Origin: Sinorhizobium mexicanum | GTDB lineage: Bacteria > Pseudomonadota > Alphaproteobacteria > Rhizobiales > Rhizobiaceae | Length of the DNA: 64,000 nucleotides | Direction of reading: 5' to 3' | Assembly: GCF_013488225.1 (NCBI RefSeq) | Contig: NZ_CP041238.1 | Span: 1,823,501-1,887,500, forward strand | Shown here: positions 40,957-52,891 of the stretch, one piece after another | Layout: every line of letters starts with the position of its first letter | Position numbering within the stretch: position 1 is the first letter of the stretch | Translations under genes and position numbers: made by a program | The notes under the pieces: model-generated | What the model was told of the DNA's origin: nothing | Seen by the model: the letters and a program-made list of their open reading frames with translations, nothing else | The model's database searches: none

Positions 40957-41097
40957 CAGACCGCAGTCCCGAGCCGCGGTTTTGTCAGCTCCGCGATCGA
41001 TCCAGGCGACACGTTTCGCCGTGAACGCCTGGACGCAATGTTCAATATCCGCCGCTACCGTGAGATTCTGCCGCGCAGCGCCCAAAGGAACCAATCC

Positions 41098-42480
41098 ATG
41101 ACTAACGTAGAAAAGTATGACCTCGTCGTCTTCGGTGGCGGTAAAGCGGGAAAAACGCTTGCCATGGACGAAGCCCGCGCGGGAAGGAAAGTGGCAATGA
41201 TCGAGGCCGGGATGATAGGCGGCTCATGTATCAACGTCGCGTGCATTCCGAGTAAGACGTTCATCCGTAGTGCCGAGATCGCTCATACGCTCGGGCAGGC
41301 GGCGCAGTTCGGCTTCCCCGAAGCAACAGCCGAACCGGATATGGGAGTTGTCGCCGCCCGTACCGCGAACGTGGTGGGCGAGATGGTCAGGACAAACCAA
41401 TCGGGGTTCGACGCCAGCGGCCTCGAGCTGTTGTTGGGGTGGGGCGCGTTCGTGGCACCCAGAATCATCGCGGTGGCGGGCACCGCTGGTCCGCGGCACG
41501 TGACAGCCGACAGTATTTTCATCAACCTCGGCACGCTCGCCGAAATCCCGGACCTCCCCGGACTCAAAGACGCCAATCCCCTCACACATGTTGAAGCGTT
41601 GCGCATCGGCGAACCTGTCCGCAAGCTGCTGATCCTCGGTGGCGGCTTCATCGCGCTTGAGCTTGGTCAGGCCTTTAAAAGACTGGGTACCGAGGTGACG
41701 ATCATCGAGCGTGGCCAACGTCTCCTGCCGCGGGAGGACGCGGACGTCGCCGACAGTATACTGGCGGCGATGAAGACCGAGGGCTTGGAAGTGGTGCTCG
41801 GGTGCGACGTGGCTGCAGTTGAAGGGAAGTCCGGCTTAGCCGTCACGGTGACGGCTGCTGATGGGAGACGCTTTGACGGCACGCACCTGCTTGTCGCCAC
41901 CGGCCGCCGGCCGCGGACCAAGGATATCGGCCTGGAGATCGCCGGCGTAGCGACCGACGAGCGCGGCTTCATTGAGGTCGACGATCATCTCAGAACCACG
42001 GCGAATGGTATTTGGGCCATGGGGGAGGTCGCCGGAACGCCGATGTTTACCCACGCGTCGCTCGACGACTACCGGATCGTCAAAAGTGACCTTAACGGCG
42101 GGACCCGACGCACGACCGACAGAACCATTCCATATTGTGTTTTCATCGATCCGGAATATGCCCGCATCGGGCTCAATGAAGAGGACGCTCGTCGGGAAGG
42201 TTTGGCCTACCGTGTTGCAAAGCTGCCGATGGACGTCATCCCACGCGCTCGAACGTTATCCCGCCGGGAAGGGTTCATGAATGCCATCGTTGCAGGACAC
42301 ACCGATGAGATACTTGGATTCAGCATGCTCGGCGAGAACGCCGGCGAGGTGATGAGCGTCGTCCAAATGGCGATGCTCGGGAAACTTCCCTATACGGCTC
42401 TGCGAGACTGCATCTTCGCGCACCCGACCATTTCGGAAGGCCTGAATATGCTTTTCGCGAACGTCCGCGCCCCGGATTGA
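41098..42480 (+). CDS. Pyridine nucleotide-disulphide oxidoreductase (mercuric reductase-like)
   Basis: I place the start at the ATG at 41098 (AAAGGAACC upstream), giving 460 residues. It has FAD-binding KYDLVVFGGGKAGKTLA, the redox disulphide GGSCINVACIPSK (Cys44, Cys49), the NAD site LLILGGGFIALELGQAF, a second FAD segment GIWAMGEVAGTPMFTHAS and the dimer-interface HPTISEGL with the catalytic His. The spacing of the cysteines and lack of an N-terminal metal-binding domain point to a MerA- or lipoamide-dehydrogenase-like enzyme of uncertain substrate. It lies after katA and may reduce oxidised thiols or quinones. Confidence 0.88.
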   Translation: MTNVEKYDLVVFGGGKAGKTLAMDEARAGRKVAMIEAGMIGGSCINVACIPSKTFIRSAEIAHTLGQAAQFGFPEATAEPDMGVVAARTANVVGEMVRTNQSGFDASGLELLLGWGAFVAPRIIAVAGTAGPRHVTADSIFINLGTLAEIPDLPGLKDANPLTHVEALRIGEPVRKLLILGGGFIALELGQAFKRLGTEVTIIERGQRLLPREDADVADSILAAMKTEGLEVVLGCDVAAVEGKSGLAVTVTAADGRRFDGTHLLVATGRRPRTKDIGLEIAGVATDERGFIEVDDHLRTTANGIWAMGEVAGTPMFTHASLDDYRIVKSDLNGGTRRTTDRTIPYCVFIDPEYARIGLNEEDARREGLAYRVAKLPMDVIPRARTLSRREGFMNAIVAGHTDEILGFSMLGENAGEVMSVVQMAMLGKLPYTALRDCIFAHPTISEGLNMLFANVRAPD

Positions 42481-42667
42481 GCGGAAATATGTAGCATCTC
42501 TGCAACAACCTGGGGAAAACCGGGACTTCAATAGTCGTACAACTTATACGCAGGTATGGTTGCGCCTTTCGCGACTTGCTGACGATTGACTCACAGCCAC
42601 CCTGACGTGTTGTTTCGCACAGGACGCGTTAGATAAATCATGACCCCATAGCGTGCACGGAGTTGGA

Positions 42668-44074
42668 ATGAAGGTCCTCGGTTCGCCCCGCCCCACGGAT
42701 GAGCAGCTCAAGATAATTGCGGAGGTTCGGACCGGAACGGAAATTATCCGTGGCGCGGCCGGCAGCGGGAAAACGACCACGGCGTTGCTCCGCCTACGCA
42801 ATCTGAGCGATATGTTCAAATCACGGCACGCTCGGCTGGAAATCCAGACCCCGGTCAGGGCGTTGGTTCTCACTTACAACCGTACGCTTTGCGGTTACGT
42901 TGAAGCTCTGGCTCAGCAACAGGCGTCCTCGGGCGGAGGCGTGGAACTCGAGGTTGCCACCTTCGCTCAATGGGCCATGAGGTTCACTCACAACAACGAC
43001 GTGATCGGCCGCGACGCGCGCGAATACGCGCTGGCGAAACTTTCGGCAGTTCATGACCTCAAACTATCCTCGACCTTCCTCGCATCTGAGGTTGAATACC
43101 TCCGCGGCCGCTTTTCGCCCGCCGACTACAAAAGCTACTTGGATACGGAGCGGACTGGGCGGGGAATCTCGCCCCGTGTCGAGAAGGCCACCCGCGAAAA
43201 GATACTATCGGTCATAGATGCCTACAACGCGGAACTGATCGCCAAGAGACAGGTCGATTGGGAGGACATCACGGCCGCCGCGGCTAACGCAGCCAGCATG
43301 GGATATCAGATCATCGTTGTCGACGAGGCGCAGGATTTCTCCGCAAACCAAATCCGCGCGTTGCGCAAGCACCTCGCAGACGACGCCCATGCATTTACGC
43401 TCGTTGTCGATACCGCGCAGCGTCTCTACCCGCGGGGCTATACGTGGAAGGAAGCGGGCATCGACGCCGGTCAAGCCCAGTTTCACCGCCTGTCCAAAAA
43501 CCACCGAAACACGGTGGAGATCGCGGCATTCGCAAGCGGAATCGTCGCCGGTCTCAAGCTTGACGACGATGGGACGATGCCTGACCTGAAAATGGCGACA
43601 AGCCATGGCCCCAAGCCCGCCGTCCTCAAGGGCAAGTACAACAAGCAACTGTCCGCGGCCATCGGCTATATCAAGGGCAATGTCGATCTGGCCAATGAGA
43701 CGGTTGCGTTTCTAAAGCCGCAGGGCGGTGGATGGTTTGCAGACATCAGGGATCGCCTCGACGCGGAAGGACTGCCCTATGAGGACATCACACGCGAGCG
43801 CACGTGGGCAAACAACGACGTCAACATCGTTCTCAGCACGATGCACAGCGCCAAAGGCCTGGAATTCGACCACGTCATCATCATTGGTCTCAATCAGGAA
43901 AACACCCCCCACGACGAGGACGCTGATGACGACCAGCATCAGGTGCTTCGCCGACTTCTCGCGATGGCCGTCGCACGCGCGCGCAAAAGCGTCGTCATCG
44001 GTTACAAGCCCTCCGAGGCTTCGGGTCTGGTGAAGTATTTCGTCCCGACGACGATCGATGAAAGCGAACTGTAA
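42668..44074 (+). CDS. Small SF1 (UvrD/Rep-like) helicase or ATPase of an ADP-ribosylation module
   Basis: The ATG at 42668 (GGAG five bases upstream) gives 468 residues. SF1 motifs run in order: motif I RGAAGSGKTT (28-37), Ia LVLTYNRTL, motif II VVDEAQDFS (218-225), motif IV-like KNHRNT (277-282), motif V STMHSAKGLEFDHVIIIG (390-407) and motif VI LLAMAVARARKSVVIGY (431-446). In common helicases motif VI reads …YVAMTRARK; here one residue differs but the Arg finger remains. The 1B/2B inserts are very short, so it is smaller than UvrD (~720 residues). Its stop overlaps the DarT-like gene start (TAATG), which makes it the first gene of the module and links DNA unwinding or DNA-end sensing to DNA ADP-ribosylation. 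Confidence 0.85.
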   Translation: MKVLGSPRPTDEQLKIIAEVRTGTEIIRGAAGSGKTTTALLRLRNLSDMFKSRHARLEIQTPVRALVLTYNRTLCGYVEALAQQQASSGGGVELEVATFAQWAMRFTHNNDVIGRDAREYALAKLSAVHDLKLSSTFLASEVEYLRGRFSPADYKSYLDTERTGRGISPRVEKATREKILSVIDAYNAELIAKRQVDWEDITAAAANAASMGYQIIVVDEAQDFSANQIRALRKHLADDAHAFTLVVDTAQRLYPRGYTWKEAGIDAGQAQFHRLSKNHRNTVEIAAFASGIVAGLKLDDDGTMPDLKMATSHGPKPAVLKGKYNKQLSAAIGYIKGNVDLANETVAFLKPQGGGWFADIRDRLDAEGLPYEDITRERTWANNDVNIVLSTMHSAKGLEFDHVIIIGLNQENTPHDEDADDDQHQVLRRLLAMAVARARKSVVIGYKPSEASGLVKYFVPTTIDESEL

Positions 44075-44736
44075 TGGGCGAAATCAGAGACTTCGCCGTC
44101 GGCCGTGGAATCACGGAAATCCTCCATTTTACGACAAACAAAGGCCTTACTGGATGCCTTCACACCAACGCTTTGCTTTCACGTCATCGTCTGAAAGACG
44201 AGGATAGCCTTGTTCATATCCTGACGTTGAATTCCAAGTTCAGAAAGGAAGAGGAGAGCACGTTCAATCAGCACGAGAATTGGATCGACTACGTCAATCT
44301 GAGCGTATCGGAAATCACAACAAACCTATTCAGGGCGTCACTGAGATGGCACGCGGGAAAGGATTTGTTCTGGGTCATTATGGCTTTCGACCCGGCCATC
44401 CTGGATGATGAAGGCGTATATTTCTCGACGACCAACAACATCTACAGCGGGACGCAACGCCAGAAGGGCCTTGCAGGGTTCAAGGCGCTATTCGCCGCGT
44501 CGGTCTCGCGATGGTGGAATAACACCGTTCTCCGCAAAGACAGACCCGACCACCTCACGACCTGTGAACAGGCTGAGGTTCTTTACCCGGGGCAGATTGA
44601 CATGCGGAACCTCAAGCGTGTCTACGTAGCCGACGGCGACCTCGCCGACCGGATTGCAGCGTACCTCGGCACCTATAATCGTGCGGATGTGGAGGTAGTT
44701 GTGGCCCCGGCAAAATTCGAGGGTCAAGGCAATTGA
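44074..44736 (+). CDS. darT: DarT-family DNA ADP-ribosyltransferase (DUF4433)
   Basis: The 220-residue protein has the DUF4433/DarT pattern: ITEILHFTTNKGLTGCLHTN with the NAD-binding His18, SRHRLKD (an Arg position), the HENWIDYVNLSVS segment (67-79), DLFWVIMAFDPAIL with EGVYFSTTN, and TTCEQAEVLYPGQI (162-175), whose Glu matches the catalytic Glu of DarT. Known DarT enzymes attach ADP-ribose to thymidine or guanosine bases of single-stranded DNA and stop replication; here the base is unknown. It starts within the helicase stop codon and ends at the start region of the ADP-ribosylglycohydrolase, so all three are made together. Confidence 0.82.
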   Translation: MGEIRDFAVGRGITEILHFTTNKGLTGCLHTNALLSRHRLKDEDSLVHILTLNSKFRKEEESTFNQHENWIDYVNLSVSEITTNLFRASLRWHAGKDLFWVIMAFDPAILDDEGVYFSTTNNIYSGTQRQKGLAGFKALFAASVSRWWNNTVLRKDRPDHLTTCEQAEVLYPGQIDMRNLKRVYVADGDLADRIAAYLGTYNRADVEVVVAPAKFEGQGN

Positions 44737-44750
44737 CGGAGGTTGAAGCT

Positions 44751-46421
44751 GTGACGTCCAGAGACCGACAAGCAGCCGTGATCGGATCGGCTCTTTGGGC
44801 CGCGGCCGGCGATGCTCTGGGCTGGATCACCGAGCTCGGGGACGAGGGAACAGTGCGCCATCGCACAGGTTCTTCGTCCGTATCTCGTACCGTTGAATGG
44901 CGACGCCGCATCGGCGGAAAGTTCGGCCCGACTGTAAGGCTGCCTGCCGGAACCTATTCCGATGACACCCAACTCAGGTTGGCTGTGGGAAGAGCTACAG
45001 GCCCTACGGGTGTATTCGATGCCGAAGCCTTCGCTAAGATCGAACTGCCTGTTTGGAGCAGCTACTCACTGGGCGCAGGACGCGGAACCTCGGCCGCAGC
45101 CTCAAATCTCGCGAAGACGAGCGTAAGCTGGTTTAATAACTTCTTCGGTCAGGCCGACGGCCGTAACTACTTCGTTGCCGGCGGAAACGGTGCCGCGATG
45201 AGGATACAGCCCCACGTATGGAAATCTGATCCCTCGCGGCCTGATACATTTCTGCCCGACGTCCTTCGTGATTCCGTGATCACGCACGGCGCTCCCAAAG
45301 GCATCGGCGGTGCCGTGTTCCATTCGCTTTGTGTTGCCTACGCGCTGAACGAAGGACGGGCTCCCGAACTCAATGAATGGCGCAATTTCATACAGCATCT
45401 GGAATACTGCGAAGCCATCATCAAGTCGGATGACAAGTTGGGGCTTTTCTGGCTCAAAGCCTGGGAGAGCAAAGCTGGCCGTTCCTTGGGTGATGCGTTC
45501 AAGGACGAAATTACGCAGGCGCAACGGGCTATCGGCGAGATAGCCGAATTTGCCGACAGCCCCGCAAGATATGAGGATGTGCTGCAGGCACTTGGCTGCC
45601 TTGACGAAGCCACGAGAGGGGCAGGCATCGGGACCGCTTTGGCAGCCGCAGTGGTCGCGAACTACGTGGGGAAAGTGGGAGAGGAAGACGCGCTGCTCAT
45701 AGCTGCCAACGCACTCCATAGTGATACCGACACAATTGCATCGATGGCCGGGGCTATTTTCGGATGCTTCGCGTCGGTCGACATGACTTGGGATATCCAG
45801 GATAAGGATTACATCGCGAGCGAAGCCAGACGCATGGCTGCTTTGTCCAGCGGCCAGAAGGTCCCCTCATTTCACTACCCCGACCTCCTGTCATGGACTC
45901 CCCCAACAACGCAGAGCGATGGCGTCGGTCTTCTCAACGGCACGCTGTTCATGGCGGGCTTGGGCGGACTGAAGGAAATCGGCGAGGAATACGAGACCAA
46001 CGACGCCATCTGGCAGTGGGCCTCGCTTCCCTTCGGACAGACTGTTCTAACAAAACGGAGGCGTAAACCCCGGTTGCTCGGCCCCGCCGATGCACCTCTA
46101 GTGCCGGTGCCAGCGAAACAGGCATCGCAACGATCGCCAGCACCATCTCCACCCAAATCTCGGCAACCCGACTTCTTCGCGGGAAGCCAATCCAGTTTCG
46201 TAACGGGTGGGAATGTCGAAGCTCGGCGCGTCGTCGAACCCGATCTGGAGAAGTTGGACTTGGACGCCCTGACGTCCCTGGTCATCGATAGTGGTTTTCC
46301 GGCTGCGCTGATTGGGCGAATACTTCTCGCGTTGGCCACTCGCGAAAACGGTGTCGAGGCCGCGATTGCTTTCTCGGCAATCGTAGCCAAGGCAGTAAGG
46401 TCGCGACGCAAAAGGGTTTAA
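44751..46421 (+). CDS. ADP-ribosylglycohydrolase with extra C-terminal domain, proposed antitoxin
   Basis: I choose the GTG at 44751 because ACGGAGG lies eight bases upstream; a TTG at 44733 overlapping the DarT stop is less likely. The 556-residue product has an N-terminal ARH/DraG-fold domain with the metal-binding motifs TYSDDTQL (~69-75), AGGNGAAMRIQP (~143-154), THGAPKG (~178-184) and HSDTDTIASMAGAIFG (~323-338). After residue ~375 come a linker rich in Pro/Ser/Lys (PAPSPPKSRQP) and a ~60-residue helical end with the basic tail RSRRKRV. It would remove ADP-ribose placed by the DarT-like enzyme, the role played by the macrodomain DarG in DarTG. The tail may hold the toxin or bind DNA. Confidence 0.85.
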   Translation: MTSRDRQAAVIGSALWAAAGDALGWITELGDEGTVRHRTGSSSVSRTVEWRRRIGGKFGPTVRLPAGTYSDDTQLRLAVGRATGPTGVFDAEAFAKIELPVWSSYSLGAGRGTSAAASNLAKTSVSWFNNFFGQADGRNYFVAGGNGAAMRIQPHVWKSDPSRPDTFLPDVLRDSVITHGAPKGIGGAVFHSLCVAYALNEGRAPELNEWRNFIQHLEYCEAIIKSDDKLGLFWLKAWESKAGRSLGDAFKDEITQAQRAIGEIAEFADSPARYEDVLQALGCLDEATRGAGIGTALAAAVVANYVGKVGEEDALLIAANALHSDTDTIASMAGAIFGCFASVDMTWDIQDKDYIASEARRMAALSSGQKVPSFHYPDLLSWTPPTTQSDGVGLLNGTLFMAGLGGLKEIGEEYETNDAIWQWASLPFGQTVLTKRRRKPRLLGPADAPLVPVPAKQASQRSPAPSPPKSRQPDFFAGSQSSFVTGGNVEARRVVEPDLEKLDLDALTSLVIDSGFPAALIGRILLALATRENGVEAAIAFSAIVAKAVRSRRKRV

Positions 46422-46428
46422 GTGTGCG

Positions 46429-46794
46429 TTAGAGACGCATGGAGTCCGCTAGAGCGCCAACGGAATGGCGATAACCGCCGCGCACAAGGGCGGTGGCACT
46501 GAGAGCGGCATCGGACCATGCCTGGCGAGTCTCCGGTAAAACCGTCGTCCAAACGTCGTCAGCCTCCTCGACGGTTACGCGCTCGGGATAGACCCTCGCG
46601 ACATACCTAAGCTGGGATGCATGGATTTCGCCGTCGCGGTGGAAAACGTCATTCAGGACAGAGGCTGCGGCCTCCCAATACGAACGAGAGTCGCGATCTG
46701 TAACTGATTCATGGAATATGGCTTCGTAGTCAGGCGGGTCAAGGCGATCGCTGGTGTGGGTCGAGAGGCAGTAGGCTGAAGCGGCGTCGATCAT
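46429..46794 (-). CDS. Conserved-looking hypothetical protein
   Basis: The 121-residue frame converges on the ADP-ribosylglycohydrolase with seven bases between the stops. ATG 46794 has GGAGATT seven bases upstream. The product is acidic and helical (RDSRSYWEAAASVLNDVF, RYVARVYPERVTVEEADDVW) with no signal peptide. I do not know its family. The close fit and the ribosome site make it a real gene more likely than not. Confidence 0.5.
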   Translation of the reverse strand: MIDAASAYCLSTHTSDRLDPPDYEAIFHESVTDRDSRSYWEAAASVLNDVFHRDGEIHASQLRYVARVYPERVTVEEADDVWTTVLPETRQAWSDAALSATALVRGGYRHSVGALADSMRL

Positions 46795-46916
46795 TGGGCA
46801 ATCTCCATGGGGTTATTCTCCATGGTCAATCGATTGCTTGCCTCAGACAAGCGCCGGCGGAAGGTTGATCTGCGCATCTGAAGGCGGTGTCGGCGGCTCC
46901 CGACCCCGCCAGCAAG

Positions 46917-47390
46917 TCACCTCGCGAGGGCGACTTCGATAAAATGAATGAGGCAGTCGACTTCTACGGGCTTGGCGAGGAACGCCAAAGCGCCGCCATC
47001 CATCGCTGAACTGCGGGTTTTCTCGTCTCGATACGATGTCATGAAAATGATGGGCGGCTTGGGCGGTTGGTGATTTAGGCGGTCCTGAAGTTCCAAACCG
47101 CTGAGACCCGGCATTTTGACGTCCAGGAGGATGCAGCCGATCCCTTCCCTGTCGCCATGAGCCAGAAAGTCCTCTGCGGATGCAAAGACCTGGCTTGTGT
47201 ACCCGCAAGACTTCACAAGGCTGTCAAGAGCTTCTCGGATGGCGTCATCGTCGTCAACGATGGCTACGGTCAAGGGCGAGGACACGGACGTGGAGCTTTC
47301 GTGGGTCTGGTTCAGGGTTGACGATATCCCGGAACCGGAGGCCGCGGTATCATACGTCGGTGTGAGGCTGATTGGCTTCCAGCATTTCAA
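46917..47390 (-). CDS. Receiver-only response regulator (start uncertain)
   Basis: The protein is a single CheY-like receiver: VAIVDDDDAIREALDSL with acidic pocket, LLDVKMPGLSGLE with the phospho-Asp, FMTSYRDEKTRSSAMDGGA and the lysine in FLAKPVE. No output domain follows the receiver, which ends at residue 157. The frame begins with a TTG at 47390 inside the upstream regulator gene; a GTG at 47285 would give 122 residues and a compact receiver, and neither has a good ribosome site. It probably shares the phosphorelay of the kinase at 47997-49574 and could sequester phosphate. Confidence 0.75.
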   Translation of the reverse strand: MKCWKPISLTPTYDTAASGSGISSTLNQTHESSTSVSSPLTVAIVDDDDAIREALDSLVKSCGYTSQVFASAEDFLAHGDREGIGCILLDVKMPGLSGLELQDRLNHQPPKPPIIFMTSYRDEKTRSSAMDGGALAFLAKPVEVDCLIHFIEVALAR

Positions 47391-48000
47391 ACTTCTTGAC
47401 GAGATCGGTGACGGACTTTGCCTCCATTTTCCTCATGCCGTTCCCGCGATGAATCTTCACCGTAATCTCGCTAATGCCGAGGTTGAACGCGATCTGCTTG
47501 TTCATGAGCCCCTTCACGACCTCCTGCATTACCTCACGTTCGCGCTGCGTGAGGCTCCTGTATCTTGCCGCAAGTGCGCCGATCAATTCGGATTGTTGCT
47601 GTCGCTTGGCGTTTACTTCGAAGGCCTCGCGGACGGCGTCGAGCACGTCCCGGTCTCCGAACGGCTTCGCGAGGAAATCCAGAGCACCCGCCTTCATCGC
47701 TCTCACGCTCATCGGAATGTCTCCGTAGCCCGTCATGAAGATAATCGGCATGCGGATTCCGGTTCGTTCGAGCTCACTCTGAAAGTCGAGGCCATTTACC
47801 CCAGGCAGGCGGACGTCCAGCAGTAGGCAGCCGGGTCCCCGGAGACCTGCAGAGTTCAGGAAGTCCGCTGTGTTCGGGTAGGTTACAACTGCGATATCGG
47901 CGGAGCGGAAAAGGTCAGTCAGCGATTCACGAAAAGCCTCATCGTCCTCGATAATGTGGACGGTGGGCACTGCTTCGGGAGATGTCTGCTGCGGGCTCAC
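47350..48000 (-). CDS. FixJ-type response regulator with LuxR output
   Basis: The 216-residue protein has a receiver domain (TVHIIEDDEAFRESL, LLDVRLPGVNGLD, FMTGYGDIPMSVRAMKAGA, FLAKPF) followed by a GerE/LuxR helix-turn-helix: SLTQREREVMQEVVKGLMNKQIAFNLGISEITVKIHRG. It overlaps the kinase gene by four bases, so the kinase-regulator pair is translated together. It should activate transcription after phosphorylation of the receiver Asp. Confidence 0.9.
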   Translation of the reverse strand: MSPQQTSPEAVPTVHIIEDDEAFRESLTDLFRSADIAVVTYPNTADFLNSAGLRGPGCLLLDVRLPGVNGLDFQSELERTGIRMPIIFMTGYGDIPMSVRAMKAGALDFLAKPFGDRDVLDAVREAFEVNAKRQQQSELIGALAARYRSLTQREREVMQEVVKGLMNKQIAFNLGISEITVKIHRGNGMRKMEAKSVTDLVKKFEMLEANQPHTDV

Positions 48001-49574
48001 TGCGTCGCCCTGAGAGGTATCGTCATTTCGAACAATGCTCCATTGGTTGCATTCATTCCGGTCAGACTTCCTCCCATTCCCTCCATCGTGGCGCGGCTGA
48101 TAGAAAGACCGATTCCCATCCCGTTCGGTTTGGTGGTGAAAAAGGGGGCAAAAAGCTTCTCCTTTATGTCGTCGCTCATCCCCGGACCAAAGTCTCTCAC
48201 TTTCAGCGACAGCGCCTCACTGCCCTTTCGCCCCAGTGACAGCTGGATGAGTCGATCGCTCTCAGGAACACCCGAGACCGCGTGGATGCCATTTGAAATT
48301 AGATTGATCAGGACCTGTTGCAGCTCTATCCGGACCGCGTACACGGTCGGCAGACTTTCTTCGACCTCCAACGTCAACTGCACTGAGTCCCGCTGGAGCT
48401 CGTGATCCATGAGGGCACGAGTTTCCTCGACAAGGTCCGTTATCGAGACTTCCTCGAACTTCCGCCTCTTCTGTTTGATGAAATTGCGAGTGTTCAGAAT
48501 AATGTCGCTCGCCCTTTGACTGTCTCGGATCATACGCTCGGCTGAGCCTCTCACCGCGACCAGATCGGGCGGGTTTTTGTCGAGCCATCGCACCAAGGTC
48601 TGAGCATTTACGACAAGCGCTCCCAGAGGCTGGTTCAACTCATGAGCAAGGGAGGCCGACATTGCTCCCATGGTGGCTGCACGGGCGGCGTTTGTGAGCT
48701 CCGCTTGGGCGTCACGTAACGCCCGATGGGTCTTTTCACGATGTGTGATGTCGAACATGGCAACGGCTACGCGCCTGAAAGCAGCAGGATCGTCTGGAAA
48801 CCTCAGGCTCAACAGGACCTCGCGTTCGCTCCCATCGTAAGCGACGATGGTGCACTTGCCCTCGAAACGGTTGCCACCGCGGAAGATGCAGTCGAGAATC
48901 TCGGCCATCGACTCCATGTTAGTCGGAAGAAGCGACTGCAACGTAGCCGGAATCTGTTGTCCAGGAGGGAGTCCAATGAGCTCTCTAGCCGCGTCGTTGG
49001 CCGCGATCGTTCGAATTCGTGAGACCGCTTCTGCCATGACGTGCGGATTGGCGGAGGCGTGGGTGCGGAAATCATGAACACCTGCCGCCTTCAGCGAAAG
49101 GAGAAACTCCCGGACCAATGAGTAGTCCCGTTCCCAAAGCGCCACTCGGCTTTCTTCGAAGATCGAGCGGTAGCGACTCTCGCTTTCTGACAGCGCGCTG
49201 TTTGCTTGGATCAGCTGATTGTGGGCCGCATCGTTGCGGAGGATCAGGGCGCACGTGATAGAAAGCGCCGCCAGCGAAACGACGAGTCGCAAGGAACTGG
49301 CGAAATCAAGGCCGTCGCTATGACCTATGGCGAAGGCGAGAAAGGCTAGAACGCCACATATACTAGCTGCCGCGATCGTTGCGACCCGCGAGAGGACGGG
49401 AGCCGCGAGAAGAAGAGCGACCACGTACAGCACCGCGATTGCGCTTTCAATCGTCGTGAAGGCGTCAATGTAGAAGACCGCGCCCGTGAGCGGGAGCGCA
49501 AACATCGCTGTGCGGAGTTCCTGAGCTACGTCTTGGCCCGAGAGCCCATCTTTCATCCATCCACTCGTCGTCAC
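47997..49574 (-). CDS. Membrane histidine kinase with PAS-like region
   Basis: The 525-residue kinase begins with about four hydrophobic segments (residues ~25-110, e.g. IESAIAVLYVVALLLAAPVL), then a PAS-like region (~130-280), a HisKA dimerisation helix with phospho-His in SLAHELNQPLGALVVN, and the ATPase boxes LINLISNGIHAV (N), VRDFGPGMSDDIKEKLFAPFFTTK (G1/F) and GMGIGLSISRATMEGMGG (G2). It resembles the FixL-like kinases abundant in rhizobia but I see no heme-binding PAS. It phosphorylates the regulator encoded just downstream. Confidence 0.9.
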   Translation of the reverse strand: MTTSGWMKDGLSGQDVAQELRTAMFALPLTGAVFYIDAFTTIESAIAVLYVVALLLAAPVLSRVATIAAASICGVLAFLAFAIGHSDGLDFASSLRLVVSLAALSITCALILRNDAAHNQLIQANSALSESESRYRSIFEESRVALWERDYSLVREFLLSLKAAGVHDFRTHASANPHVMAEAVSRIRTIAANDAARELIGLPPGQQIPATLQSLLPTNMESMAEILDCIFRGGNRFEGKCTIVAYDGSEREVLLSLRFPDDPAAFRRVAVAMFDITHREKTHRALRDAQAELTNAARAATMGAMSASLAHELNQPLGALVVNAQTLVRWLDKNPPDLVAVRGSAERMIRDSQRASDIILNTRNFIKQKRRKFEEVSITDLVEETRALMDHELQRDSVQLTLEVEESLPTVYAVRIELQQVLINLISNGIHAVSGVPESDRLIQLSLGRKGSEALSLKVRDFGPGMSDDIKEKLFAPFFTTKPNGMGIGLSISRATMEGMGGSLTGMNATNGALFEMTIPLRATQ

Positions 49575-50091
49575 CCGAGCACTCCCGCATTCGACGAAGT
49601 CGACAGTTACGTTGAGGACTCTTCAGCTCGCACGACAGCAGACTTTAGCAAGCCCCGTCGCGCCTCATCGAGCTTCCCACGAATACGGGTGGAAATTACC
49701 ACAGGCCATCAGGTGGGATAGATTATACTCGAGCATAGTCACCACTACGGGACGACGTGGTTCAGGAAAGATAGCTGAAATGGAGGCCGTCCCCAGCGGC
49801 ATGGGGACGGCCTCGGCGGACCTACTGTCCGCGCTGCCTCGGCGGGAGGGGAGACCGAAGCAGGCAACGCGCCTGCGCGCGTGGTCCGCTCTATTAGAGG
49901 AGGGGAGCTCTTTCGCTGCGGACAAGAACAGAACTACCATCGACGGCTGTGCTTTTAAATTATACTCAGGTTTGACCACGGATACTTTCCTGCATTGGAA
50001 GTGCCATTGGCATCCATCTCCAAGACTTCTCGAATTGAATAATGCAGGTTCACCGCATACATCATCCTTCATTTGAAAGACGAAGGAGGTC
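49575..50091. other. 517-base spacer with a perfect hairpin
   Basis: This region lies between the kinase start (leftward) and the LysR start (rightward) and should hold both promoters. The striking element is GAGGCCGTCCCC / GGGGACGGCCTC at 49784-49795 and 49804-49815, a perfect 12-base stem with loop AGCGGCAT and no following T-run. Antisense frames here have no family similarity. The hairpin is a possible terminator or regulatory RNA structure. Confidence 0.4.
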
Positions 50092-51027
50092 ATGACCGTG
50101 GATCGTTTGAAAACCATGGAAGTCTTTGTGAGGGTGGTAGAGGCTGGCAGCCTCTCCAAAGCAGCCGCAACGCTCTCCGCACCTCGTTCGTCGGTCACGA
50201 TGGCGATGAACCGCCTCGAAAAACACCTCGGCGTCCGGTTGCTGCAGCGGACCACGAGAAATCTCAGTCTTACAGCCGATGGTGAAGCGTACTATGCGGA
50301 ATGCCGCCGGATTTTACACGACATCGACGCTGTCGAGGCAAGCCTTCGACGGGACCTCAAGTCTCTTGAAGGGAGGCTCCGTGTAGACATGCCGGTGTCG
50401 ATCGCGACGTCGGTGGTCATACCTAAGCTGGACCTCTTTAGAAGCCGTCATCCAGGAATTCGGATCGCGATCGGAGCAAACGACCGCCGCCTGGACCTGG
50501 TTCAGGAGGGCATCGACTGCGTAATTAGAACCGGCGAATTGGCCGACTCTGCTTTGGTCGGCAAGCGCATTGGCAGATTCAACTGGATCACATGCGCAAC
50601 TCCGGAATATCTCTCCGCAAACGCTGCGCCGAAAACGCCGGCCGACCTCGAGGCACACAAGCTCATTGGGTACTTTCATGGCAACGGTACCGCCGAAAAA
50701 TGGACTTACATGAATCGCGGAAAACCGGAAACTATCCAAGTGGACAGCGAAGTCTCAGTCAACGAGACGTCCGCTTATCTTTCGTTGGGGCTAGGCCATC
50801 ATGGGATTGTGAGACTGGCGGACTACATCGTACAGCCTTTTCTCGACAAAGGTCAGCTTGTGGAGCTACTGGCCGAATACCGACCTGTATCCACGCCAGT
50901 TTCGATCTTGTACCCGACATCCCGGCATCTATCACCGCTGGTTCGCGCGTTTGTAGACTGGGCTGCCACCCTCTTCGAACCAGCGGTTCCTGGCCTAGTC
51001 GAAAAATTCGACGGGCAGCAGGAGTGA
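50092..51027 (+). CDS. LysR-family transcriptional regulator
   Basis: The 311-residue protein starts at an ATG after a very good ribosome site (AAGGAGGT). Residues ~7-66 are the LysR helix-turn-helix: MEVFVRVVEAGSLSKAAATL and SVTMAMNRLEKHLGVRLLQRTTR. The effector domain includes GRLRVDMPVSIATSVVIPKL. The sequence (RTTRNLSLTADGEAYYAECRRIL) places it in the common DmlR/YafC-like branch. Target genes are not apparent; the neighbours are AraC regulators on the other strand. Confidence 0.92.
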   Translation: MTVDRLKTMEVFVRVVEAGSLSKAAATLSAPRSSVTMAMNRLEKHLGVRLLQRTTRNLSLTADGEAYYAECRRILHDIDAVEASLRRDLKSLEGRLRVDMPVSIATSVVIPKLDLFRSRHPGIRIAIGANDRRLDLVQEGIDCVIRTGELADSALVGKRIGRFNWITCATPEYLSANAAPKTPADLEAHKLIGYFHGNGTAEKWTYMNRGKPETIQVDSEVSVNETSAYLSLGLGHHGIVRLADYIVQPFLDKGQLVELLAEYRPVSTPVSILYPTSRHLSPLVRAFVDWAATLFEPAVPGLVEKFDGQQE

Positions 51028-51044
51028 CCGCTTCGCTTCCCCTT

Positions 51045-52007
51045 TCAAGCCTGCTCTATCAGCGCGTCTTGGTACTGGTCGGCACTGTTGTGCCGCGTCA
51101 TTTGGGATCGGTAGCTCCCCGGCGTGGTTCCGTAAACGCGGGTGAAAACGCGTGTCAGATGCGCCTGGTCGGTGAAACCGCATTCGTAGGCGATGCCGGC
51201 GATGGGCTCTTTTGATTCCGAAAGGAGGCGAGCCGCTTTCTCAACGCGCCGGTTGCGTAACCACTGATGAACAGCGAAACCCGTCGTCTCCTTGAACGCC
51301 TTCGTGAACGTGCTGACCGGCATCTCACAGAGGGCAGCAACGGCTTCGAGGGAATGGTCGTTCGTCAAATCGGCGAGCAGGTACTCTTCGATTTTGTTCA
51401 TCTGCGATCGCGTGAGATTGCTGGAGCGAGCCAACGGCCTGGAACCGCCTCGATAGTTATCGAGCAAGTAGGCGGCGAGCGCTATGCCGACATGATCGAA
51501 GAACAGTCTGCCAGCTCCCGCGGGGTCGTCCAGTGCGGGAAGCAATGACCGACAAAGGTGCGCGGCGACGGGGTCGACACGCGCCTCCCGTCCTTCGAGC
51601 CCGTGGAACGCCGGGAGCTCCTCTTGTTCGCAGAGCTCGCGCAGCACAAGATCGGGAATGTGGAACATCAAGCAGTCATAGCTGGTGGGGAGGTGCGCCC
51701 GCGGCTCTTCCTCCAGGTGGACCATGCTTATCGTATCCTTCTCGAAGCCTCCAGAATAGAAGAGACGGTCGAACTTCCAAAGCTCGTGGTGCCGAAGCGT
51801 CTTCAGCTGAAAGCTGACCACGGATGCCTTCTCGACGGGGATGTTCGCCGTCATCTCTTTCGAGCCTTCGTCGGTCCACAATCTGGTGACCGTGATCTGA
51901 GATGACCTGAGGGAAGAGGTTTTCAGTGTCTGGTAGTTCGAAATCCCAAAAAGATGGGCGATCTGAGCGCCGGCTGCCGCTCGTGGACTTCGTCTCTCTT
52001 TACTCAT
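51045..52007 (-). CDS. AraC-family transcriptional regulator (downstream copy)
   Basis: The 320-residue protein has a cupin-like N-terminal effector region and the AraC double helix-turn-helix at the C-terminus: LEAVAALCEMPVSTFTKAFKETTGFAVHQWLRNRRVEKAARLL and GIAYECGFTDQAHLTRVFTRVYGTTPGSYR. Its ATG overlaps the stop of the upstream AraC gene by four bases (ATGA at 52004-52007). The effector region is similar in layout to that of its neighbour (for example DTISMVHLEEEPR against DSINIVHLAEEPR), so they arose by duplication. Confidence 0.9.
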   Translation of the reverse strand: MSKERRSPRAAAGAQIAHLFGISNYQTLKTSSLRSSQITVTRLWTDEGSKEMTANIPVEKASVVSFQLKTLRHHELWKFDRLFYSGGFEKDTISMVHLEEEPRAHLPTSYDCLMFHIPDLVLRELCEQEELPAFHGLEGREARVDPVAAHLCRSLLPALDDPAGAGRLFFDHVGIALAAYLLDNYRGGSRPLARSSNLTRSQMNKIEEYLLADLTNDHSLEAVAALCEMPVSTFTKAFKETTGFAVHQWLRNRRVEKAARLLSESKEPIAGIAYECGFTDQAHLTRVFTRVYGTTPGSYRSQMTRHNSADQYQDALIEQA

Positions 52008-52891
52008 CTGTTCCGTCTCCAGACGCTGGGCGTCATTCCGACGCCGGCGCTAAACGTCCTAGTCAGGTGTGCCTGGTCTGCGAAGCCGCATCTGGCGGCG
52101 ATGTCCCTAAGGGCGAGTTGTGTGGTGAGAAGCAGTTCTTGCGCCAGGTCTATTCGGTAGCGGCGGACCCACTGACTCGGGCTCATTCCAGTGGCCGCCT
52201 GGAAAGCCGTCGTGAAGCTGGCTAGGGGAATCTGAAACTCACGCGCGAGGTCGACGAGACCGACGTCGCCGCGCTCGGAGACCAGCATCTCCTGCGCGGC
52301 CCGTATTTGCGCCGGCGACAGGTCCACATCGTTGCAGCGGGCGGGTACTTGGTCGCCATAGCGCGTTGTCAACTCGCTGAGCATGCCGAAGATGAGCTGG
52401 TCCACGTAAAGGCCAGATGCGGTATTCGACCGGGCGAGTGCTGGGAGCAAGGCTCTTCCGAGGTTTGCGATTACTTCGTTGATCTCGCCCGGTGTCACAT
52501 GGAAGCCGGTGATATGTCGATCATGATTGTCTTCTGCAAAAGACTTCAGCGCTGCGCCTGTCAGGTGAAGCTGGAGACAATCGAAGGGGTTGGGAAGGAG
52601 GATGCGTGGCTCTTCGGCCAGGTGGACGATATTGATCGAGTCCCGTTCGTAGGGAAGGGCATTTGAGAGTTTCCCTCCCTTCCAAAGCTCGTGGCGGCCG
52701 ATGCGCTCGATTTGGAGGCTTACGATGTAGGTATCTTCCACCGGAATTGGCGCGGTCATCTCCGCACCCAGGCCGCTCGAGATGAGGCGTACTGCTGTAA
52801 CAGCTGTAGATTTAGGGTGCCCGGCGAGACGTTGCGATGCTCTCGTGGCACCGACGTACTTCTCCATCTGCAAGCCGTGCTCGGACGACAT
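52004..52891 (-). CDS. AraC-family transcriptional regulator (upstream copy)
   Basis: The 295-residue paralogue of the downstream gene keeps the same plan: effector region with RHELWKGGKLSNALPYERDS, and the C-terminal AraC domain DLAREFQIPLASFTTAFQAATGMSPSQWVRRYRIDLAQELL and IAARCGFADQAHLTRTFSAGVGMTPSVWRR. The two form one bicistronic unit with an ATGA overlap. An upstream hairpin-like palindrome (52978-53003) lies between this promoter and the divergent small DNA-binding protein. Confidence 0.9.
   Translation of the reverse strand: MSSEHGLQMEKYVGATRASQRLAGHPKSTAVTAVRLISSGLGAEMTAPIPVEDTYIVSLQIERIGRHELWKGGKLSNALPYERDSINIVHLAEEPRILLPNPFDCLQLHLTGAALKSFAEDNHDRHITGFHVTPGEINEVIANLGRALLPALARSNTASGLYVDQLIFGMLSELTTRYGDQVPARCNDVDLSPAQIRAAQEMLVSERGDVGLVDLAREFQIPLASFTTAFQAATGMSPSQWVRRYRIDLAQELLLTTQLALRDIAARCGFADQAHLTRTFSAGVGMTPSVWRRNR

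Follow-up and report, generated by a model that had tools for sequence, protein, structure and literature searches.

A stretch of 64,000 nucleotides from Sinorhizobium mexicanum (contig NZ_CP041238.1; the window) holds three adjoining genes, for a compact UvrD-like superfamily 1 (SF1) helicase, a DarT-family ADP-ribosyltransferase and an ADP-ribosylhydrolase of the ARH/DraG fold, and the best reading of their sequences is that this trio is a DarT system that combines a helicase with an antidote of a third type, matching neither DarTG1 nor DarTG2. The chances are about even that the conserved trio consists of a DarT that would be toxic through marking a base, most likely guanine, in single-stranded DNA (ssDNA), an ARH that would act as antidote by erasing the mark, and a helicase that may expose or deliver ssDNA, the whole probably serving phage defence. 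An initial annotation had described a module of this kind with a swapped antitoxin, from genes that overlap or abut. Open reading frame (ORF) and Pfam searches of the window agree with it in coordinates and scores: the three ORFs all lie on the plus strand, one base (within TAATG) is common to the helicase stop and the DarT start, and the ARH gene most likely starts at GTG 44751, 14 bases past the DarT stop and behind a likely ribosome-binding site, GGAGG (Table 1). A longer alternative starts at TTG 44733, from which ARH residues are numbered here.

The three genes are a real unit. A search with the ARH profile alone, over one genome per species (84,980 species), gave 329 stretches with one of two exact peptide patterns, of which 166 encode relatives, and when the ORFs of the best 80 of these 166 were searched with profiles, 77 loci proved to have helicase, DarT and ARH in identical order and strand. 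The three uncounted loci comprise one with a contig edge inside DarT (L004) and two decayed loci in which DarT is a remnant and the ARH is long (L014, with ARH and DarT remnant; L066, with short helicase and DarT remnants), and among the 77 the helicase is interrupted in two (L042, L053) and cut by a contig end in one (L039). By their record titles, several being metagenome bins, the 77 loci cover nine phyla: Pseudomonadota (45), Actinomycetota (16), Thermodesulfobacteriota (6), Acidobacteriota (4), Chloroflexota (2) and one each of Myxococcota, Bacteroidota, Verrucomicrobiota and Planctomycetota. Conservation was measured on a set of 77 sequences that is not identical to these loci: it holds 74 genome loci, the window (L002) and two viral loci (L085, L086), and leaves out broken, decayed or cut genes (L066, L042, L053, L039, L087, L003) and repeats (L001, L088, L089). 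The distance matrices of the three proteins correlate (Mantel r 0.795, 0.809 and 0.819; permutation maxima 0.095, 0.116 and 0.130), and helicase and DarT overlap by four bases in 54 of 77 relatives. Separate searches of 72,556 plasmid records with the helicase (E 1e-40), DarT (1e-6) and ARH (1e-30) found the same four records, the ARH search adding one partial record from Nostoc. A DNA search found the unit in 21 of 5,426 Escherichia coli genomes, with 80% or more of the three-gene query covered in each, and in the 7.14-Mb window genome these two neighbours are the sole matches to PF03747 and PF14487. Chance neighbourhood, which the initial annotation had named as the outcome that would undo its proposal if the three proteins were searched as a linked set, is ruled out by the shared order, the shared plasmid records and the co-divergence, and its inclusion of the helicase in the unit is borne out.

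The transferase belongs to the DarT family both by its PF14487 score, which is above the Pfam cut-off, and by its fold, and its closest solved relative is DarT1 (8baq). H18, R57, N121, Q166 and E168 align with DarT1 H17, R52, N104, Q150 and E152, a correspondence that takes in all three residues essential in DarT1 (R52, N104 and E152); E168 and N121 are kept in all 77 sequences and R57 in 74. Other matches are lower, with 12.8 bits to the DarT2 structure 7omu, 35.6 bits to the PADLOC 2.0 DarT model and 17.5 bits to NCBIfam toxin_DarT, below its cut-off of 150. The residues aligned with DarT1 point to a DarT1-like guanine target rather than thymidine, and the transferase is predicted to ADP-ribosylate a base in ssDNA. 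In a tree of 29 DarTs, with fusion proteins trimmed to DarT and the close trios represented by 20 of their 77 DarTs, a hand-made choice meant to cover the phyla, the trio DarTs form a clade separate from DarT1; the placement in this tree of three outlying DarTs described below (that of genome G610 and those of two distant trios), where long branches meet, is not settled.

The neighbouring hydrolase is assigned to the ARH/DraG family by PF03747 (98.9 bits, cut-off 26.2) and by its fold. Asp-rich motifs form the metal site of ARH/DraG hydrolases, and here YSDDTQ and SDTDTI align with ARH3 YTDDTA and GDTDTI, D77, D78, D331 and D333 (also E34 and T332) being invariant in 77 of 77 sequences. The unusual proline-rich linker and helical tail of the initial annotation can be recognised in the structural model, in which confidence is very low for residues 459-501 and helices lie within 510-560. 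The C-terminal part has no Pfam or PDB sequence match, and no new fold is claimed for it because the fold search barely tested that part; no PADLOC 2.0 model matches the ARH at E 0.1. As to chemistry, the guanine N2 amine sits in a guanidine-like group, like that of the arginine which some ARHs free of ADP-ribose, and because of this resemblance reversal of a guanine mark by an ARH is plausible.

The antidote role is argued for most strongly by one genome, G610. At this locus (L121/L142, contig 116, 525-3334) the helicase overlaps a DarT, which is followed by a convergent DarT1-type NADAR and no ARH; the helicase scores 216.7 bits with the trio helicase profile, the DarT 60.6 bits with the trio DarT profile and the NADAR 299.4 bits with the profile of DarT1-linked NADARs. 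NADAR reverses guanine ADP-ribosylation (PMC11543638). As the known DarT1 antidote takes the place of the ARH in G610, the exchange supports both the ARH as antidote and a guanine-type mark, and it is because this exchange rests on one genome that the reading of the whole trio is put at no better than even. The swapped antitoxin of the initial annotation accordingly stands as to its position, which is the one that the antidote has in DarT operons, and its exchange for NADAR, the reversal reaction itself being inferred. The two decayed loci L014 and L066, with a long ARH beside a DarT remnant, also count in favour of the proposed reading. A survey of 398 genomes of the phylum for the DarT returned the window, G610 and, in G532, a weak match that belongs to a DarT1-NADAR locus. 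A second survey, again of 398 genomes, found eight with a DarT1-linked NADAR, and three of the seven loci other than G610 have no match to the DarT profile. No G610-type DarT was found in viral contigs, and a search of its order with the G610 helicase gave three further, more distant matches in longer proteins.

Two other accounts of the hydrolase bear on this argument. First, the transferase may modify protein or RNA and the ARH reverse that mark, as in DraT-DraG and Tre1-Tri1, with the helicase as target or regulator. This is unlikely, given that the enzyme is a DarT in sequence, fold and active site and not a DraT or Tre1, and given that the enzyme replacing the ARH in G610 reverses guanine ADP-ribosylation (PMC11543638). 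Second, the ARH may be no eraser at all, neutralising DarT by binding through its extra parts, or having phage-made ADP-ribosylation or free ADP-ribose derivatives as its target. Both the tail and the extra beta-rich part are conserved, the tail is swapped for a glyoxalase-like domain in the distant trios, and hydrolase systems aimed at virus-made ADP-ribosylation have been discussed (PMC9503650). However, the catalytic residues are invariant, which implies that activity is needed, and in G610 the corresponding position is taken by an enzyme known to erase base marks, so that this second account is improbable. The distant helicase-DarT-ARH trios lie on Streptomyces and Shinella plasmids (L125:5624-7411, L130:7078-8808), and it is their ARH that ends in the glyoxalase-like domain instead of the helical tail.

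The helicase is assigned to the SF1 UvrD-like enzymes by its Walker A (residue 29), DEAQD (219) and motif V-like TMHSAKGLEF (391) sequences, the C-terminal motifs being present as well. Its best UvrD_C stretch spans only positions 285-347 of the 350 in the profile, and the protein, with 468 amino acids (aa), is shorter than UvrD and PcrA chains (647-724 aa); for these two reasons it seems to be without the large 2B insertion. An alternative that is compatible with the ARH antidote, and that has a real though minority chance of being correct, is that the helicase senses phage replication ends or ssDNA, or is a repair arm that clears modified DNA. Its nearest PADLOC models belong to NERD+UvrD (72.1 bits) and Gabija GajB (70.3 bits), and RecF-mediated recombination and nucleotide excision repair reverse DarT lesions according to the title of a further study (PMC7003065). 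Against this, the analysis does not separate feeding, sensing and repair, and the four-base overlap with DarT argues only for co-expression. A similar UvrD-like helicase domain occurs inside longer proteins in L126, L131 and matches on E. coli and Klebsiella plasmids; the protein directly upstream of them is a large one, which in L126 is a DEAD/DEAH helicase, and the fetched stretches gave no DarT, ARH or NADAR profile match.

The distribution of the trio raises the possibility that its main role is addiction, by which islands and plasmids would be kept stable, and that defence comes second. This DarT is found in one of 33 genomes of the genus, that of the window, and a survey of the order for the ARH found it in two of 297 genomes. 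Aligned by blastn with the nearest relative, G322 (stretch L095), the window matches at 41001-42474 (89.8%) and 46876-51057 (87.3%), and because the flanks lie 25 bases apart in G322, about 4.4 kb was gained in the window lineage or lost in that of G322. Elsewhere, one copy is on a conjugative Cereibacter plasmid, and the E. coli copy is in an island behind ychF with an integrase and a P-loop NTPase gene, RADAR rdrB lying about 13 kb on. Four loci in viral contigs match the ARH profile, of which three have the complete gene set (the ARH of L087 in two pieces) and one is cut at the contig end (L084), and the DarT profile found two, both on contigs also found with the ARH; phage records gave no DarT match. 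Such patchy occurrence on plasmids, islands and viral contigs would fit an addiction module, but the window copy lies in a small segment without a recognised mobility gene and other copies have defence-like neighbours, which leaves addiction as the chief role a rather unlikely one. On a Salmonella plasmid (L092; CP101356.1, 142345-167739) the gene order is that of the E. coli chromosome, with prs, dauA, ychH, pth, ychF, integrase and trio, as would result from capture of a piece of chromosome.

For the neighbours, 141 flanking ORFs were listed at 78 loci (on either side the nearest one with 130 aa or more, by a crude choice of ORF); 133 of them went through both PADLOC and Pfam scans and five long ones through a Pfam scan only, two of L066 and one of L067 being left out. 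There is no constant fourth gene, the commonest Pfam family occurring in five and the commonest PADLOC family in four of the 133. Among the 25 commonest families listed, PADLOC matches include RmrA (4) and capP (3), single cases match methylase, DpdF, JetD, BREX, Olokun and PsyrT models, and mobility matches comprise integrases (4), resolvases (3) and transposases; the five long neighbours include one HsdR-type subunit and one TrwC relaxase.

Several observations weigh against the proposed roles and have to be set beside the evidence above. In the transferase, M71 varies, and DarT1 D54, K74 and Y75 are not kept in the 11 aligned rows of the close family. Seven of the eight NADAR loci have no such helicase within about 4 kb, and for this reason a helicase is not needed for DarT1 action. 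On genomic DNA the DarT mark is not removed by human ARH3 (PMC9967889), and the ARH3-like SCO5809 is inactive on guanosine-ADP-ribosylated RNA (PMC11833690). One viral contig (L087:5989-7619; IMGVR_UViG_2690315689_000004) has open helicase and DarT genes and an ARH frameshifted after residue 346, behind its catalytic motifs. Protein searches gave at least 2,963 candidates for the ARH and at least 2,905 for the helicase, against 347 for DarT, and given this excess, ARH or helicase relatives may occur without this DarT outside the sampled loci. Finally, the defence and mobility matches among the neighbours are context rather than enrichment, the scan having no matched control.

If the trio does act on DNA as proposed, the ARH would clear ADP-ribose from host DNA at rest. 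During infection abundant ssDNA from phage replication would be opened or scanned by the helicase, modification by DarT would outpace removal by the ARH, and replication would stop; the extra beta-rich part and helical tail of the ARH may bind DarT, the helicase or DNA. It is somewhat short of an even prospect, again because the antidote exchange rests on one genome, that the trio defines a third DarT class, spread over nine phyla, with the first ARH-fold nucleobase eraser and a dedicated helicase that would aim an ssDNA-only modifier at replicating or duplex phage DNA, the helicase and DarT pair going with an ARH in some genomes and with NADAR, an unrelated eraser, in another. In the literature covered, reversal of DarT base marks from within the operon is by macrodomain and NADAR, so an ARH antidote, if true, would be a third unrelated fold, and an ARH active on bases would, in the same literature, be a new activity for that fold. 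The fixed helicase partner suggests that some DarT systems make or seek ssDNA rather than wait for it.

Table 1. Features of the trio and its surroundings in the window
Feature	Position	Strand	Basis
Compact UvrD-like SF1 helicase gene, 468 aa	42668..44074	+	PF13361 51.6 bits, PF00580 33 bits
DarT-family ADP-ribosyltransferase gene, 220 aa	44074..44736	+	PF14487 78.9 bits, cut-off 22.5
GGAGG, likely ribosome-binding site of ARH gene	44738..44742	+	Sequence
ARH/DraG-fold ADP-ribosylhydrolase gene	44751..46421	+	556 aa from GTG 44751; 562 aa from TTG 44733
ARH catalytic core	44757..45857	+	Residues 9-375 (from TTG 44733); invariant E34, D77, D78, D331, T332, D333
Extra beta-rich part of ARH protein	45912..46061	+	Residues 394-443; model strands and confidence (predicted local distance difference test, pLDDT); conserved in 77-sequence set
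Pro-rich linker, predicted disordered	46107..46235	+	Residues 459-501; pLDDT < 50; poorly conserved
Conserved helical tail with basic end	46248..46418	+	Residues 506-562; model helices 510-519, 524-535, 540-560; occupancy 0.97 in 77 sequences
Segment absent from same-genus genome G322, holding the whole trio	42475..46875		blastn; flanks 25 bases apart in G322

The segment missing from G322 also holds a 121-aa ORF on the minus strand (46429-46794) without a Pfam match, and no match to it was found in the fetched loci, the 72,556 plasmids or 99 other genomes. No RNA families were found at 41000-48500, and scans for promoters and terminators gave results no different from the range of shuffles. 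Further along, two adjoining ORFs on the minus strand (51045-52891) resemble AraC-type regulators on visual inspection and may be a tandem duplication.

In full-text literature searches no description of a helicase-DarT-ARH trio was recognised, and an earlier mention is possible. DarTs are stated to sit in operons with varied hydrolases, an observation credited to de Souza and Aravind (PMC11543638), and a survey of NAD and ADP-ribose systems couples DraG with DraT, DarT with Macro or NADAR and Macro with sirtuin, the trio not being described in the parts of it that were covered (PMC9503650). Some SGI1-related elements carry a helicase, a macro-domain protein and two DUF4433 proteins (PMC9035990), and differ from the trio. 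DarTG1 and DarTG2 are distinguished by a NADAR and a macrodomain antidote respectively (PMC11543638). The trio is like DarTG1 in its nearest solved transferase, in the aligned catalytic His and Arg, base-holding Asn, Gln and Glu, and in a hydrolase gene that adjoins DarT; it is unlike DarTG1 in having the ARH fold rather than NADAR, a fixed helicase, a separate DarT clade and no conserved D54, K74 or Y75. Membership of DarTG1 is rejected on the antidote, as the neighbour is an ARH and the window genome has no match to the DarT1-type NADAR (PF22397). From DarTG2 the trio differs in its weak match, in having Asn where DarT2 has its base-holding His and in an ARH instead of a macrodomain; membership is rejected here too, with an adjoining ARH, no macrodomain match and a toxin_DarT score below cut-off.

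Likeness to other systems is confined to single parts. Tre1-Tri1 and the Listeria pair of ADP-ribosyltransferase (ART) and ARH are toxin-immunity pairs of another ART type, and no helicase is known in them. Like the trio they set an ADP-ribosyltransferase beside an ARH-fold protein, in their case a neutraliser (6drh, 8za7), and unlike theirs the window's ART is a DarT. Gabija GajB and NERD-UvrD share with the trio a compact UvrD-like helicase; in the trio its partners are DarT and ARH rather than a GajA-type nuclease, and Gabija membership is rejected with no GajA beside the helicase and GajB-type models at 70.3 bits or less. CmdTAC has an mRNA target, and an antitoxin and chaperone instead of a putative eraser and a helicase, in which it is unlike the trio. 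CmdTAC is an anti-phage system and, like the trio, is built around an ADP-ribosyltransferase (PMC11618068).

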